From Ensifer adhaerens (lineage in GTDB: Bacteria > Pseudomonadota > Alphaproteobacteria > Rhizobiales > Rhizobiaceae): 64,000 bases of DNA. Shown in pieces: positions 28,269 through 36,660 of the stretch. The stretch is from NCBI RefSeq assembly GCF_002007205.1, contig NZ_LAZS01000005.1:1488001-1552000 (forward strand), written 5' to 3'. The translations under genes and the position numbers were made by a program. The notes beneath the pieces were generated by a model. It worked only from the letters and a program-made list of their open reading frames with translations. It was not told the origin of the DNA and did not search any database. The number at the start of each line of letters is the position of its first letter. The stretch's first letter is position 1.

Positions 28269-28790
28269 CTAGCTGCAACAGTTGGAACGGGCGGACGGGG
28301 CGCAGCATGGCGAAGCCTTCTCGTTCTGCTCGGCCAGCCAACGGTCCCGAGGCTTGCAACTCGCCGGACGCGGCGTCAAAGCGACTTGGAGAGTGCCGTC
28401 CTCCGCGACAGGGGTATTCGCACAAAACAACTGCATCGGGCGGACGCCATCGCTGACTTCGAAGGTCAGCTTGGCGGAGCCGTCGAGACGGAGGTGTTCG
28501 GAAACCTTGCGGACGATGGCCGAGAACTTCCCGGCTGTCATATAGGTCCGCTCGCCCTCCTCGATATCCCACAGCTGCACGAAAATCTCCGACCAGGCTT
28601 CCGGATTTGCCCCGCAATCAAGCGCGGAGAACTGGCCAGCCTTGACCTCGGTCACGTGATAGCCGGGCTTCACGGGCTTTCCGTCATACAGGAAGACCAA
28701 GGGCAGGTCCGGTGTCTCTGCGGCTCTGCCGAGCAACTCCCCAAGCGAGATATCGGTTTTGTCGGATTGGCTATTGTCGATCGCGCTCAT
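28269..28790 (-). CDS. DUF6428 family protein
   Basis: 173-residue cytoplasmic protein of a family without known function, usually found beside ArsR regulators in rhizobia. It has a mixed alpha/beta body (LVFLYDGKPVKPGYHVTEVK, KLTFEVSDGVRPMQLFC) and a cysteine-bearing tail (ASPCCAPSARSNCCS). The tail with two CC pairs could bind a soft metal or metalloid. It is divergent from an arsR-type gene, with 43 bases between the two starts, and both share one palindromic operator there. A role in arsenic or organoarsenical handling is an inference from this setting. Confidence 0.8.
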   Translation of the reverse strand: MSAIDNSQSDKTDISLGELLGRAAETPDLPLVFLYDGKPVKPGYHVTEVKAGQFSALDCGANPEAWSEIFVQLWDIEEGERTYMTAGKFSAIVRKVSEHLRLDGSAKLTFEVSDGVRPMQLFCANTPVAEDGTLQVALTPRPASCKPRDRWLAEQNEKASPCCAPSARSNCCS

Positions 28791-28805
28791 TTGTGGCTAT
28801 CCTCA

Positions 28806-28833
28806 ATTTCAATGATTCAAGGATTATTGAAAT
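28806..28833. promoter_or_regulatory. Palindromic operator of the divergent DUF6428/arsR pair
   Basis: Perfect 8-bp inverted repeat ATTTCAAT-N12-ATTGAAAT. Its right arm ends on the base before the arsR ATG at 28834, so it covers that gene's ribosome binding site (AAGGA). Size, symmetry and position fit an ArsR dimer site controlling both directions. Confidence 0.65.
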
Positions 28834-29175
28834 ATGGATGATCGTCAAGCCCTCTCCTCCTTCGCCGCGCTTTCACAGGAAACCCGACTTTCCATCGTGA
28901 GGACCCTGGTCATCGCCGGCCCTGAAGGTCTGGCCGCCGGCGCGATTGCCGAACGCATGGGCGTCTCTCCATCAAACGTCTCGTTCCACCTCAAGGAACT
29001 CGAACGATCAGGCCTCATCTCCCAACGCCGGGAGTCGCGCTCGATCGTCTATAACGCAAGTTACGACACGCTGGCCGATCTGGTGACTTTCCTGATGGAA
29101 GACTGCTGCGCGGGGCATCCCGGCATCCGCGGGTCCGTCGAGCGATCCGCCAGTTGCTGTTCAAGCGAAGCATAG
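28834..29175 (+). CDS. ArsR-family regulator (metalloid type)
   Basis: 113-residue winged-helix repressor. The helix-turn-helix is GAIAERMGVSPSNVSFHLKELERSGLI, followed by the wing SQRRESRSIVYN. Candidate inducer-binding cysteines are EDCCAGHPG at about 90 and SCCSSE at the end, similar to the C-terminal As(III) sites of some ArsR proteins. It begins a rightward set with an MFS permease 19 bases later and is divergent from the DUF6428 gene. It most likely represses both arms through the palindrome at 28806-28833. Confidence 0.88.
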   Translation: MDDRQALSSFAALSQETRLSIVRTLVIAGPEGLAAGAIAERMGVSPSNVSFHLKELERSGLISQRRESRSIVYNASYDTLADLVTFLMEDCCAGHPGIRGSVERSASCCSSEA

Positions 29176-29194
29176 CCCGTCAAGGAATACGTCA

Positions 29195-30394
29195 TTGCAT
29201 ACGACCAAGGTTCCGGCGGGCATCGTCTCCGCTCTCGGTGTCACGCAGATCATCGGCTACGGCACTCTCTACTACTCCTTCAGCATCCTTGCCCCCGGAA
29301 TGGCCAACGACCTCGGCATCAGCCTGGAGCGGGTCTTCGCCGTCTTCTCGGTCTCGCTGTTCATCGGCGGCCTGTCTGCTCCGTTCATCGGCAGGCACAT
29401 GGACAGGATCGGCGCGGCGACGGTGATGACGCTGGGGTCGGCCCTTGCGGCGTTCACCTTGGCACTCTGCGCATGGTCACCGTCCGTATCGCTCTTCGCC
29501 CTTGCAATTGTCCTGCTCGAGGTGTCCTCCGGGATGGTCCAGTATCAGGCAGCCTTCGCCACACTGGTCGAAAGCGAACCTCGCACGGCGTCCCGTAGCA
29601 TCACTTACCTCACGCTCATCGGCGGCTTTGCCTCCACCATCTTCTGGCCGATCGCCGCGACACTGACCGGATATCTGACCTGGCGCGAAATCTATCTGGT
29701 GTTCGCCGTCCTGAACCTTCTCGTCTGCATGCCCCTGCACTACTGGATCATGCGTGCCGGAAGGCTGAGTTCCAAAACGGACGAGACAAGAACCCGCGAG
29801 GTCGTCGTCGGCGCTCTTGAGCCGCAGGCCCGCCGCCGCGGCATGCTGTTGGTCTCCTTCGCCTTCTCTCTTTCGGGCTTCACCCTCGCCGCGATCCTTG
29901 CCCACATGGTGCCGATGCTCGGCGCGATCGGACTTGGCAGTGCGGCGGTCGTGATCGGCTCCTTGTTCGGTCCGGCACAAGTCATGAGCCGCCTTATCAA
30001 CATGGTCTTCGGAAAGAGCCTGTCGCCGCCGGCGCTTGCAATTGTCTCCGCGGCGCTGATGGTCGTCGGTGCGGTGATACTTGGGGTGTCGGGCAATTGG
30101 CTGCCCGGTGCCGTGGCTTTCGCCATCTGTCTTGGCCTCGGGTCAGGGATCAACAGCATCGCTCAGGGGAGCCTGCCGCTCTATCTCTTCGGGTCCGCTG
30201 GCTACGGCGCGATCACGGGCAAGATGGCTGCGGCAAGGTTGGCGACTGGCGCGGCCGCCCCGTTTGCGTTCGCGGCCGCTATGAACCACTTCGGGACAAC
30301 CATCTCGCTTTTCGTGATCGCCGCGCTGGGAGCGCTCGGAATCCTGGCGTTCGTCGCTGTCGCCTCATCGGTGCGTCGCGACCGCGTTGCCTGA
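29195..30394 (+). CDS. MFS permease, possibly an arsenic efflux pump (ArsK-like)
   Basis: 399-residue major-facilitator permease with twelve hydrophobic helices, beginning at IVSALGVTQIIGYGTLYYSFSILAPGMAND. The start is TTG at 29195 with AAGGA seven bases upstream. It directly follows an arsR-type gene. MFS exporters of this general type (ArsK) expel trivalent arsenic and antimony in Agrobacterium. I infer a similar job from context and from the similar N-terminus, but a different anion or organic arsenical is possible. Confidence 0.75.
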   Translation: MHTTKVPAGIVSALGVTQIIGYGTLYYSFSILAPGMANDLGISLERVFAVFSVSLFIGGLSAPFIGRHMDRIGAATVMTLGSALAAFTLALCAWSPSVSLFALAIVLLEVSSGMVQYQAAFATLVESEPRTASRSITYLTLIGGFASTIFWPIAATLTGYLTWREIYLVFAVLNLLVCMPLHYWIMRAGRLSSKTDETRTREVVVGALEPQARRRGMLLVSFAFSLSGFTLAAILAHMVPMLGAIGLGSAAVVIGSLFGPAQVMSRLINMVFGKSLSPPALAIVSAALMVVGAVILGVSGNWLPGAVAFAICLGLGSGINSIAQGSLPLYLFGSAGYGAITGKMAAARLATGAAAPFAFAAAMNHFGTTISLFVIAALGALGILAFVAVASSVRRDRVA

Positions 30395-30446
30395 TGACGG
30401 AAGAACGTACAGACTCCTCGATCATCGCCATGAAAGCCAAGCCTCC

Positions 30447-31253
30447 GTGAACACTCCGATCAAATCCTCGACGTCACCCAGTCATCCGGCCGCTTTCGGC
30501 GGCGGAGCCATCATCGGCGCACTCGGCGGGTTGATAGGGCTTGGAGGGGCAGAATTCCGTCTGCCGCTGCTGATCGGCGCATTCAATTTCGCGGCCCTCG
30601 AGGCGGTGATCCTGAACAAGGCAATGAGCCTTGTCGTCGTGTCTTCCGCCCTGCCGTTTCGAGCCGGCACGATCCCTTTCAGTCAGATCGCATCGAATTG
30701 GCCGATCGTACTGAACCTTCTTGCAGGAAGCCTGATCGGTGCCTGGTTCGGCGCAGGATGGGCCACACGGTTGAAATCGGAGACCCTTTACAGGGTGATA
30801 TCCGTTCTTCTCGGCGCAATCGCCGTCGTGCTGGTGCTTGGCCACGGCACCTCGGCGGGTCAACCGCTTCTAACCGGAAACTGGCAGGTTGTCGCCGGAG
30901 TATCCGCCGGCTTCGTGATCGGCATCGTTGCGTCGCTGCTGGGCGTCGCCGGGGGCGAGTTGCTCATTCCGACGTTGGTTCTGCTCTTCGGCGCGGACAT
31001 CAAGCTCGCCGGTAGCCTCTCACTGGCGGTGAGCCTTCCCACAATGCTCGTGGGCTTTACTCGCTACAGCCGCGACCAGGGCTTTTCGGTTCTGGGTCGC
31101 AACAGGGTGTTCGTCCTCATCATGGCCGCGGGATCGGTCCTGGGGACGTTTGTCGGCGGCCTGCTCCTCGGCATTGTCCCGAATTCGATCCTCCTTCCCG
31201 CACTCGCCGTGATCTTGTTGCTGTCAGCCGTGAAGGTCTGGCGGCACGGCTGA
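30447..31253 (+). CDS. TSUP (TauE/SafE) family permease
   Basis: 268-residue membrane protein with about eight hydrophobic helices and the twin glycine-rich repeats of the family (GGGAIIGALGGLIGLGGAEFRLPLL and ASLLGVAGGELLIPTLVLLFG). TSUP proteins move sulfite, sulfonates or other small organic acids. The start is uncertain: the GTG at 30447 places the first helix properly, while a TTG at 30387 would overlap the MFS gene. Close spacing makes it the third gene of the arsR-led set. In that setting it may export a thiolated or oxyanion product, which is an inference only. Confidence 0.8.
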   Translation: MNTPIKSSTSPSHPAAFGGGAIIGALGGLIGLGGAEFRLPLLIGAFNFAALEAVILNKAMSLVVVSSALPFRAGTIPFSQIASNWPIVLNLLAGSLIGAWFGAGWATRLKSETLYRVISVLLGAIAVVLVLGHGTSAGQPLLTGNWQVVAGVSAGFVIGIVASLLGVAGGELLIPTLVLLFGADIKLAGSLSLAVSLPTMLVGFTRYSRDQGFSVLGRNRVFVLIMAAGSVLGTFVGGLLLGIVPNSILLPALAVILLLSAVKVWRHG

Positions 31254-31310: not shown

Positions 31311-32084
31311 TCAGGCGACGGACCATCCGCCGTCCACCAGCAGATTCGCGCCGGTGATCAGGCTCGCAGCCGGCGATGCAAGGAAGACTACGGCACCCAC
31401 CACATCATCGGTTTCCCCGATCCGGCCGAGTGGAATGTGATCGACCGTCGCTCTGCGATTTTCGGCATCGGATAGAAACGGTGCTGTACCATCCGTGTGG
31501 ATGAACGTCGGCGATACGGTGTTTACGGTGACATTATAGCGTGCCCATTCGGCTGCAAGGCAGCGCGTGAGGTGATTAATTGCCGCCTTGCTCATGCAAT
31601 AGATTGCCTCTCCGCGCAGTGCAACCGTACCGGCCTGTGAGCTGATACTGATGATCCGGCCACCATTTCGCGCGATCATGTGACGGCCCACTGCCTGTGT
31701 CATCAGGAAGGTGCCCTTGATGTTGACATCGAGTATCTCGTCAAGGTCCTTCTCCTCAACGAGTTCCGCGAGATTGCCCGGGGCCACGCCGACATTGTTG
31801 ACGAGGACGTCGATCCGACCGAATGCGGAAACCGCCGCGTCGACGGCTTGTGCGATATGGGCCTTCTTGGGAATGTCCAGTTCAACGGGGAGTACCTTTC
31901 GTCCCGCGCCCTCGAGTTCGGCGATCAGGCCCGCTGACGCTGCGACATCGCGGACCCCCAAGACAATATCTGAGCCTGCTGCAGCACAGGCAAGTGCGCA
32001 AGCACGTCCAATGCCACGCCTCGCGCCCGTCACCAAAGTCACCTTGCCCTCAAGGCTGAAATCCGGCGCACTCTTCCGCATCAT
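31311..32084 (-). CDS. SDR-family oxidoreductase
   Basis: 257-residue short-chain dehydrogenase/reductase of the FabG-like classical type. It has the cofactor-binding TGARRGIG near residue 20, NNVG near 93, catalytic serine in SISSQAG, and YCMSK with the catalytic Tyr-Lys pair. The C-terminus ends ITGANLLVDGGWSVA as usual. It uses NAD(P)H, with an unknown alcohol or ketone substrate. It reads leftward, convergent with the TSUP gene and 217 bases after the DUF6494 gene, so it may or may not share their transcript. Confidence 0.88.
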   Translation of the reverse strand: MMRKSAPDFSLEGKVTLVTGARRGIGRACALACAAAGSDIVLGVRDVAASAGLIAELEGAGRKVLPVELDIPKKAHIAQAVDAAVSAFGRIDVLVNNVGVAPGNLAELVEEKDLDEILDVNIKGTFLMTQAVGRHMIARNGGRIISISSQAGTVALRGEAIYCMSKAAINHLTRCLAAEWARYNVTVNTVSPTFIHTDGTAPFLSDAENRRATVDHIPLGRIGETDDVVGAVVFLASPAASLITGANLLVDGGWSVA

Positions 32085-32600: not shown

Positions 32601-32834
32601 TTAGGAACCGACGCAACAACTTGCGGCTCCGTTGTTATGTTTGGCCTCCTGGATTGGCGGGCAAGGCACGTCGCCAAAGGAACAGAACACACAGCAGTCC
32701 CCGGATTTTGGCCGGAGCATCATACCGCATCCATTGCAATCATAGAAAAACTGACAGGCGTCGGTGGGCATCGTTTCCGTAGCCCGCTGGCCGCAATTGG
32801 GACAGGTGAGGGTTGATCGAAGCTGTATGGTCAC
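32601..32834 (-). CDS. GDCCVxC-motif protein (family with selenoprotein members)
   Basis: 77-residue cysteine-rich protein. An N-terminal zinc-ribbon-like part (TCPNCG and DCNGCG) is followed by the family motif GDCCVFCSFGDVPCPPIQ. A second CC pair lies near the C-terminus (ASCCVGS). Relatives of this family carry selenocysteine in the motif; here all positions are cysteine. I chose the GTG at 32834 because GAGG lies eight bases before it and it gives the family length; longer frames start up to 32918. It lies downstream of the ars operon on the same strand. A redox or metal-binding role is suspected but unproven. Confidence 0.78.
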   Translation of the reverse strand: MTIQLRSTLTCPNCGQRATETMPTDACQFFYDCNGCGMMLRPKSGDCCVFCSFGDVPCPPIQEAKHNNGAASCCVGS

Positions 32835-33064
32835 ACTATGTGCCTCGGCAACGAGTGCTTTCAGATGACGCCCGTCATCCATTGCTGAATAGCCTATTGG
32901 AAATATCGCCTCGTGCATAGTTTTGCGTCATGAGCGCTAGGTCAGTCTTTCGAAAGGCTGCAATGGGCCGCCATAAGCGGACAAGGCGTTGGTTCGCTTT
33001 GGCCAAAGAGCGGCCATTGCGATTGCAAGATGGCCGCTATCGGAACATTGCCGATGGCCTTTGA

Positions 33065-35793: not shown

Positions 35794-36234
35794 TTAGGTC
35801 GGAGCTCTGTTGAATTGCATGATCGTTGCCGATGCAGGGCAGATGCCCGACAACTGACGGGTCGCGAGAACGGCGGGCGGCACATCAGCCCGCTCGATCA
35901 CGGCGAAGCCAAGGCTTTCGAAGAACGGTGCGGCGGAGGTCGTCGCCAGGAAGACTGCCGAGCTGACATTGACGGCCTTCAGCGTTTCCCTGGTCAGCGA
36001 TTTTCCAAGCGCCTTGCCACGATGCTCGGGCAAGATGACCATCGACCGGAGGAGGACCGCATCGCCGCATGCCTCGATGCCAGCATAGCCAACCGTGCCG
36101 CCATCGGAGGAAACCGCCCTGAAAAACGAGCGCCCAGCGTCTTCGAGGTCTTCGGTTGGAAGACCGGAAGCCGACAGCGCCAGCTTCAGTTCCGGATCGC
36201 TTCCCGGGACTGGCTCCAACCTGATGTCGCTCAT
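35794..36234 (-). CDS. arsN2: Arsenic-resistance N-acetyltransferase ArsN2
   Basis: 146-residue GNAT enzyme. The acetyl-CoA loop is ILPEHRGKALGKSL, and the family tail FFESLGFAVIERADVPPAVLATRQLSGICPASATIMQ is present. ArsN-type acetyltransferases modify arsenic-containing amino acids or related metabolites and occur in ars operons. The start at 36234 forms an ATGA overlap with the arsR stop, giving translational coupling. The exact substrate is not settled. Confidence 0.88.
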   Translation of the reverse strand: MSDIRLEPVPGSDPELKLALSASGLPTEDLEDAGRSFFRAVSSDGGTVGYAGIEACGDAVLLRSMVILPEHRGKALGKSLTRETLKAVNVSSAVFLATTSAAPFFESLGFAVIERADVPPAVLATRQLSGICPASATIMQFNRAPT

Positions 36235-36584
36235 GACGGCTTCACCTCGGCAACACAGCAGGGTGTCAGTTCGGCGATCAGCGGTGCACAGAGCTCGGTG
36301 GAGCCGCCGCAGCAATCTTTCAACAGGAAGAGGGTCAGGTCGCGCAGCCCCTGAAGGTCCGCCCGATAAATGATCGAACGGCTCTGCCGCTCGCTTGTCA
36401 CGAGGCCCGCACGCGAGAGCGTCGCAAGGTGCGCGGACATGGTGTTCTGCGGGACATCGAGAAGGCGGGCGAGTTCGCCGGCGGGTACGCCATCGGGTTC
36501 TTGCCGGACGAGAAGCCGGAACGTTTCCAGTCTGGTGGCTTGAGCCAGTGCGGCAAGCGCCGCGATTGCCGTATTGTTATCCAT
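36231..36584 (-). CDS. arsR: Arsenic-responsive repressor ArsR
   Basis: 117-residue winged-helix regulator and first gene of the ars operon. The helix-turn-helix is GELARLLDVPQNTMSAHLATLSRAGLV, followed by the wing SERQSRSIIYR. Likely As(III) ligands are DCCGG at about 93 and TPCC near the end. In the absence of arsenite it should bind the palindrome at 36586-36603 just upstream of its own start. Confidence 0.95.
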   Translation of the reverse strand: MDNNTAIAALAALAQATRLETFRLLVRQEPDGVPAGELARLLDVPQNTMSAHLATLSRAGLVTSERQSRSIIYRADLQGLRDLTLFLLKDCCGGSTELCAPLIAELTPCCVAEVKPS

Positions 36585-36585
36585 A

Positions 36586-36603
36586 TATCCAGAATAACGG
36601 ATA
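36586..36603. promoter_or_regulatory. Candidate ArsR operator of the ars operon
   Basis: Inverted repeat TATCC-N8-GGATA two bases upstream of the arsR start, in an AT-rich setting that overlaps the expected promoter and leader. Its sequence differs from the operator at 28806-28833, so the two ArsR proteins probably do not share sites. Confidence 0.55.
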
Positions 36604-36660
36604 CATTATCGGTGTCAATCCCGTCATCTTTTACAAGACCTCGGAAATCTTGGTGACAAC

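Follow-up and report, generated by a model that had tools for sequence, protein, structure and literature searches.

DUF6428, probably an overlooked arsenic-defence protein, is encoded divergently from arsR in Ensifer adhaerens and in related loci

The ars clusters serve as a model for how bacteria defend themselves against metals, and the study of newly found ars genes has tended to bring new arsenic chemistry to light. The metallochaperone ArsD, itself encoded by an ars gene, is small and has pairs of vicinal cysteines, and the exporter ArsK reportedly has arsenite and antimonite among its substrates as well, these being added in the title of its founding paper by Shi et al. in 2018. Passages of a review give methylarsenite and trivalent roxarsone as compounds exported by ArsK and report arsK in Ensifer, Rhizobium and Agrobacterium (PMC12607644), and an excerpt of another paper describes AfArsR-type repressors by three cysteines, Cys95, Cys96 and Cys102 (PMC13236881). 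Here we analyse a stretch of 64,000 nucleotides of the Ensifer adhaerens contig NZ_LAZS01000005.1 (hereafter the window), which sits in a 6.87-Mb genome and holds, divergent from an arsR gene, a gene for a protein of the family PF20001 (DUF6428), whose Pfam title records no function. Given the constant bond of this gene to arsR, the cysteines of its product and the existence of stand-alone arsR-DUF6428 pairs, DUF6428 is probably an overlooked arsenic-defence protein and most likely an arsenic-induced thiol effector. Judged from sequence, there is about an even chance that it is an ArsR-controlled effector that would bind trivalent arsenicals through its thiols and either hold them or pass them on.

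The module is made up of the following features:

28269 to 28790, minus strand: DUF6428 protein, 173 residues (PF20001, 85.7 bits, exceeding the gathering score of 28.7)
28791 to 28833, no strand: divergent gap of 43 nucleotides, the presumed ArsR operator, its length kept across related loci
28806 to 28813 and 28826 to 28833, no strand: arms of the dyad ATTTCAAT-N12-ATTGAAAT, perfect over 8 bp
28816 to 28832, no strand: dyad core TTCAA-N6-TTGAAA, conserved across related gaps
28834 to 29175, plus strand: ArsR repressor, 113 residues, CC at 91/92 and 108/109 (NF033788, 68.1 bits, cut-off 55; HTH_20, 58.6 bits)
29195 to 30394, plus strand: ArsK, an exporter of the major facilitator superfamily (MFS), 399 residues, TTG start (NF033733; MFS_1, 71.5 bits)
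30447 to 31253, plus strand: TSUP (TauE/SafE) permease, 268 residues, optional (PF01925, 91.9 bits against a gathering score of 32.6); the GTG start was chosen in this analysis, an alternative TTG lying at 30387

An earlier note, made from the letters of the window, had described this four-gene set, and the open reading frames and family matches (PF20001, HTH_20, MFS_1 and TauE) bear it out. The CC motifs that it attributed to ArsR are present at both positions, the DUF6428 protein is cysteine-tailed as claimed, its C-terminus reading ...SPCCAPSARSNCCS, and the perfect 8-bp palindrome reported in the divergent gap is there. What the earlier note did not contain is that the MFS gene is arsK and that the convergent classic ars operon next door has its own ArsR.

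The bond between DUF6428 and arsR was followed through 133 first-round DUF6428 loci, a non-random sample in which 80 loci are the 80 top-ranked among 294 candidates and six plasmid loci were chosen for their distance or to view their annotation. Orientation and gap were counted from start codons, and gene counts are probe matches, some stretches being shortened by contig ends. The earlier note had held that DUF6428 genes lying mostly away from ArsR genes would speak against its proposal; arsR is divergent from DUF6428 in 128 of the 133 loci (duplicates included; 116 are distinct), with a gap of 40-47 nucleotides in 126 of the 128 and of 71 and 74 nucleotides in the remaining two. The five non-divergent loci, namely one broken gene (L071) and four Deinococcota plasmids, are left out of the gap counts, and three further broken genes are also left out of the conservation counts. 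The divergent arrangement recurs in 10/10 further loci of another family and in three more plasmids of other groups. In Deinococcus sp. NW-56, D. deserti and Thermus oshimai, arsR lies upstream of DUF6428 on the same strand, a small hypothetical gene standing between them in two of the three, and in the Thermus plasmid, where DUF6428 adjoins arsR, no further ars gene is annotated within 6 kb. D. aetherius encodes a single ArsN2-DUF6428 fusion protein followed by an MFS gene, and a second such fusion, recognised by annotation and a Pfam GNAT domain and again followed by an MFS gene, is found in D. ficus; in the classic operon of the window ArsN2 (NF040501) is a separate gene. In Haematobacter, DUF6428 heads an arsC-acr3-arsH operon, as a structural gene would. 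DUF6428 was found in 33/297 genomes of the host's family, 3/289 of its class, 12/398 of its phylum, 11/295 of a second alphaproteobacterial family (10 of these over the cut-off) and 0/14 well-known control genomes, and the named loci closest to that of the window are on megaplasmids and scaffolds of Ensifer adhaerens.

Some further DUF6428 sequences were met along the way. The broken gene at L071:7884-8465 has no divergent arsR and is a second copy, the other DUF6428 gene of that genome being intact. In Deinococcus aquaticus (L177:4917-8291) a short DUF6428 gene of 105 residues ends near a Tn3-family transposase within an arsenate-reductase cluster. A DUF6428 at 66.7% identity is found in the phage record MT836168.1 (3554-4066), a 12.7-kb contig obtained from human faeces and labelled 'Bacteriophage sp.'; this DNA may be bacterial and misfiled. 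Several Ensifer adhaerens plasmid records contain DUF6428 stretches with no annotated gene, e.g. NZ_CP101519.1:118181-118699, the gene table being incomplete there.

Another ars gene is present at 114 of the 116 distinct loci. ArsK-like genes, counted leniently from 120 bits against the window's ArsK, occur in 95 of the 116, two ArsC types in 73 and 92, ArsH in 57, ArsN2 in 41 and ACR3 in 37. Behind the same ArsR, the nearest probed gene within 400 nucleotides is arsC or arsN2 in 71/116 loci and ArsK-like in 31/116, and with such varied partners DUF6428 is a member of ars units generally. The proposal that the four genes form a dedicated module for some other compound is thus not supported; that the module is an ArsR-controlled arsenic unit is supported. 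As to the co-occurrence of the four families, a survey of which the earlier note had suggested, DUF6428 and ArsR are constant companions and ArsK-like genes are frequent, and only the TSUP gene drops out, being present in just six of the 116 loci.

In the second alphaproteobacterial family, the arsR-DUF6428 pair seems able to stand alone. Twelve DUF6428 genomes of this family were read over 6-8 kb on each side (one contig being only 6.2 kb long), and in 11 of the 12 loci arsR and DUF6428 are the sole probe matches nearby, L203 having a full operon; one of the 11 DUF6428 proteins scores 21.8 bits, below the Pfam cut-off. ACR3 is absent from seven of the 11 stand-alone genomes and lies elsewhere in the genome in the other four (ArsB and ArsP were not probed), ArsK exceeds its cut-off in none of the 12, with weaker MFS matches in 11, and ArsH was found in both genomes tested for it. 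When the stand-alone loci were compared all against all, setting aside the close genome pair L072/L204 and with most arsR genes too short to enter, no frame of at least 110 residues other than DUF6428 and its overlapping frames was common to more than two other loci. The flanking frames (40 of 43 scanned, up to two per side) were varied and included LolA, ClpX, ClpP, ThiF, AdoHcyase, dUTPase and NAD synthase among others, several having no family, and no arsenic family was found among the 40. In 4/11 loci a permease from some other family is found no more than two genes away from the pair, one EamA, one YdcZ and two of AEC type, the latter in the close genome pair. The YdcZ-type permease gene (L207:5512-6498, minus strand) lies about 50 nucleotides behind DUF6428 on the same strand, and the two may share a transcript.

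The DUF6428 protein is small and probably cytosolic, with two invariant cysteines in its folded core and one or two CC pairs in a flexible tail. Cys59, Cys145, E48 and I92 are invariant in 132/132 aligned DUF6428 proteins, G43, H45, T47, Q72 and L138 are each present in 131/132, and E68 is nearly invariant; all 132 have a CC pair within their last 40 residues, the tail of the window protein having the form CC...CC. Two AlphaFold models of DUF6428 proteins, with mean predicted local distance difference test scores of 83.2 and 89.8, have a confident alpha/beta core, in which the long neighbouring strands 45-57 and 63-74 carry several of the conserved residues, and a CC tail of low confidence. 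The near-invariant residues other than cysteine are suggestive of an active site. The window protein matched no other Pfam family and no NCBIfam family, a PDB sequence search with DUF6428 gave no match below E 0.2, and PADLOC made no call for DUF6428, ArsK or TSUP. In its proposed way of working DUF6428 would be like ArsD, to which the PDB searches gave no sequence or fold link, no direct comparison of the two having been made.

Three candidate relatives from the structure searches were set aside. The N-terminal portion of glutamine synthetase, which repeatedly came top in the PDB searches (Z 3.3, root-mean-square deviation 3.3, 72 aligned; Z 3.3, deviation 4.2, 83 aligned), was tied with unrelated rows and for that reason was not used, despite a tempting link to arsinothricin. 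Among viral models, gp075 of Rhodococcus phage ReqiPoco6 (E 8e-7, TM-score 0.40), beside which stand two further rows at probability 0.99-1.00, has no DUF6428 motifs by eye, no Pfam family and an unannotated PHROG match, and is therefore uninformative on function. OsmC/Ohr proteins were dropped, their probability being 0.23 or less.

The palindrome of the divergent gap is by itself a roughly 1% event, since 8-bp arms with a spacer of up to 16 turn up in 203 of 20000 single-base shuffles of the 43-nucleotide gap and in 19 of 1488 window tiles of that length, and exact 8-bp arms with a 12-base spacer are found in only 17/116 related gaps. The overlapping dyad TTCAA-N6-TTGAA, which has the same right arm, is exact in 83/116 gaps and present with at most one mismatch in 106/116; TTCAA-N14-TTGAA is found in 85/116, and no other spacing from 0 to 16 in any gap. 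The extended form TTCAA-N6-TTGAAA occurs once in the 6.87-Mb genome, at this gap, and a reversed control pattern likewise occurs once, which makes the site rare without proving it special. TTTCAA-N3-TTCAA, allowing up to one mismatch, has a single match across the window (0.54 expected by chance); this match lies in the divergent gap, and the classic operon has none. We infer that the module's ArsR serves mainly its own unit. The gaps of the second alphaproteobacterial family are longer, 62-78 nucleotides in 9/11 loci, and several have two separate TTTCAA-N6-TTGAA-like dyads, one per gene; the shortest two (29 and 18 nucleotides) have one at most.

The pump side of the module is of an already known type. 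The MFS protein matches the ArsK model NF033733 at 600.1 bits against a cut-off of 400 (E 1.6e-180, residues 8-391) and is a full-length member with nothing found to set it apart, except that here a TSUP gene follows. Over the same 297 genomes of the host's family, ArsK exceeds the cut-off in 24/33 with DUF6428 against 68/264 of the others (Fisher p 1.9e-7). In ArsR, Cys91 and Cys92 are kept in 117/117 relatives and Cys108 in 116/117. The best solved relative is 6j05 (E 1e-16), presumably AfArsR, whose CC pair is aligned with residues 91/92 in an alignment that ends at residue 96. AfArsR has its third cysteine six residues past the pair, whereas the window ArsR has none at that spacing and its next cysteines, at 108/109, are farther along the tail; by its conservation, Cys108 may be the third coordinating cysteine. 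With an ArsK pump and an AfArsR-like repressor, the module fits two of the substrates guessed at in the earlier note, antimony and methylated arsenic, and nothing found in this analysis points to the other two, thiolated arsenic and a sulfur oxyanion. In the Agrobacterium 5A transcriptome, the portion available to us describes ars operons strongly induced by As(III), and that part of its main expression table contains no gene recognisable as DUF6428 (PMC7965956).

We take the TSUP permease, from its rarity at DUF6428 loci, to be an optional passenger outside the core unit. Eight of its relatives were opened, out of 40 listed among 161 plasmid records with a relative; ars genes lie within the stretch in two, a bile-acid-symporter-like gene in one and neither in five. 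The TSUP gene of P. zundukense adjoins DUF6428 and arsK, that of Microvirga has ars genes some kilobases off, and the S. meliloti relative has the bile-acid-symporter-like gene and a GDCCVxC protein nearby. The settings of the other five comprise nhaA with mercury genes, modABC, blh/bigR, chromate/phosphite genes and nothing telling, and in the blh/bigR record, from Roseateles, a DUF6428 gene lies about 11 kb away.

A mechanism can be proposed from the gene order, its conservation, the dyad, the cysteines and the family of the pump. ArsR would occupy the dyad between the two divergent genes and, as is established for the ArsR family, would be released when trivalent arsenic or antimony, the predicted inducers, reach its cysteines. 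One transcript would then carry arsR, arsK and, in this strain, the TSUP gene, and the opposite one DUF6428, the thiols of which would bind trivalent arsenicals and hold them or hand them over to a remover, ArsK or ACR3 where present; where the arsR-DUF6428 pair is alone, they would be passed to other routes. Several observations weigh against this picture. The 11 stand-alone pairs have no adjacent probed ars pump and seven of their genomes no ACR3, which argues against a chaperone serving pumps only, though permeases of other families lie near four of the pairs; moreover, 68 of the 92 ArsK genomes are without DUF6428, so that the pump does not need it. Near-invariant G43, H45, T47, E48, E68 and Q72 exceed what thiol binding alone would need, and PDB fold searches with the DUF6428 models brought up nothing at E <= 0.001 or Z >= 5, by which a new fold is not proven.

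The polar residues among these (H45, T47, E48, E68 and Q72), standing alongside Cys59 and Cys145, together with the ArsN2 fusions of the two Deinococcus plasmids and the MFS genes that follow them, keep well in play a DUF6428 that is a thiol-dependent enzyme. It would chemically change either a trivalent arsenical or some metabolite that contains arsenic, and would work in line with ArsN2 and an exporter. Stand-alone units would also suit a self-sufficient activity. We nonetheless regard such an enzyme as rather unlikely, as the window protein matches no other Pfam family and no NCBIfam family, and searches by sequence or fold found no PDB chain for it, its CC tail resembles metalloid binding, and the literature passages at hand establish no role for ArsN2 itself. 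It is improbable that DUF6428 is instead a partner of ArsR that loads or unloads arsenic and so tunes the switch, the arsenic pool itself not being its target: arsR is its sole constant neighbour at a nearly fixed gap, pairs without other probed ars genes exist, and CC motifs end both proteins, but DUF6428 leads the Haematobacter operon like a structural gene, the Deinococcus fusion is to ArsN2 and not to ArsR, and ArsR proteins are known to function without such a partner. Least of all do we expect the unit to serve another substrate, thioarsenic or a sulfur oxyanion, by way of the TSUP permease. That gene does lie behind arsK here, and close relatives adjoin bigR/blh or a molybdate transporter, but it is seldom found at DUF6428 loci, the eight opened relatives are in mixed settings, the MFS protein is ArsK, and the window ArsR scores only 30.8 bits to BigR, against a cut-off of 155.

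Beyond the module, the window contains a convergent classic ars operon with ArsH, ArsC, ACR3, a second ArsC, ArsN2 and its own ArsR. The genes singled out on this side are:

31311 to 32084, minus strand: SDR dehydrogenase between the two ars units, with a close relative near DUF6428 in 5/116 loci
32601 to 32918, minus strand: GDCCVxC-domain (seleno)protein (NF041374, 104.6 bits, cut-off 40), adjoining the classic operon
35794 to 36234: ArsN2 of the classic operon
36231 to 36584, minus strand: second ArsR, of the classic operon, behind a promoter region different from that of the module

A GDCCVxC protein is also found in 5/116 DUF6428 loci, and it adjoins the TSUP gene in S. meliloti pEm1132b. 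The second ArsR (region 36231-36640) has its own promoter region and a cysteine pattern unlike that of the DUF6428-linked ArsR, and the two ars units are thus probably under separate control.

In the literature search DUF6428 was not named and the string PF20001 matched unrelated chemistry only; of the literature on uncharacterised genes divergent from ArsR, nothing in the parts at hand apparently concerns DUF6428. The stand-alone pairs, having no adjacent ars pump to mask an effect, make the function of DUF6428 directly testable. Our boldest reading, which as a whole is tentative, is that DUF6428 may found an effector class of arsenic defence that is sufficient with ArsR, a two-gene sense-and-act unit that would occur by itself in one alphaproteobacterial family and the Thermus plasmid, with pumps added in rhizobia and with DUF6428 fused to ArsN2 in Deinococcus. 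The thiol chemistry of this effector, on a fold for which the searches found no solved relative, would be directed at trivalent or organic arsenicals. Unnamed in the literature searched, DUF6428 is kept from Alphaproteobacteria to Deinococcota, tied to ArsR.

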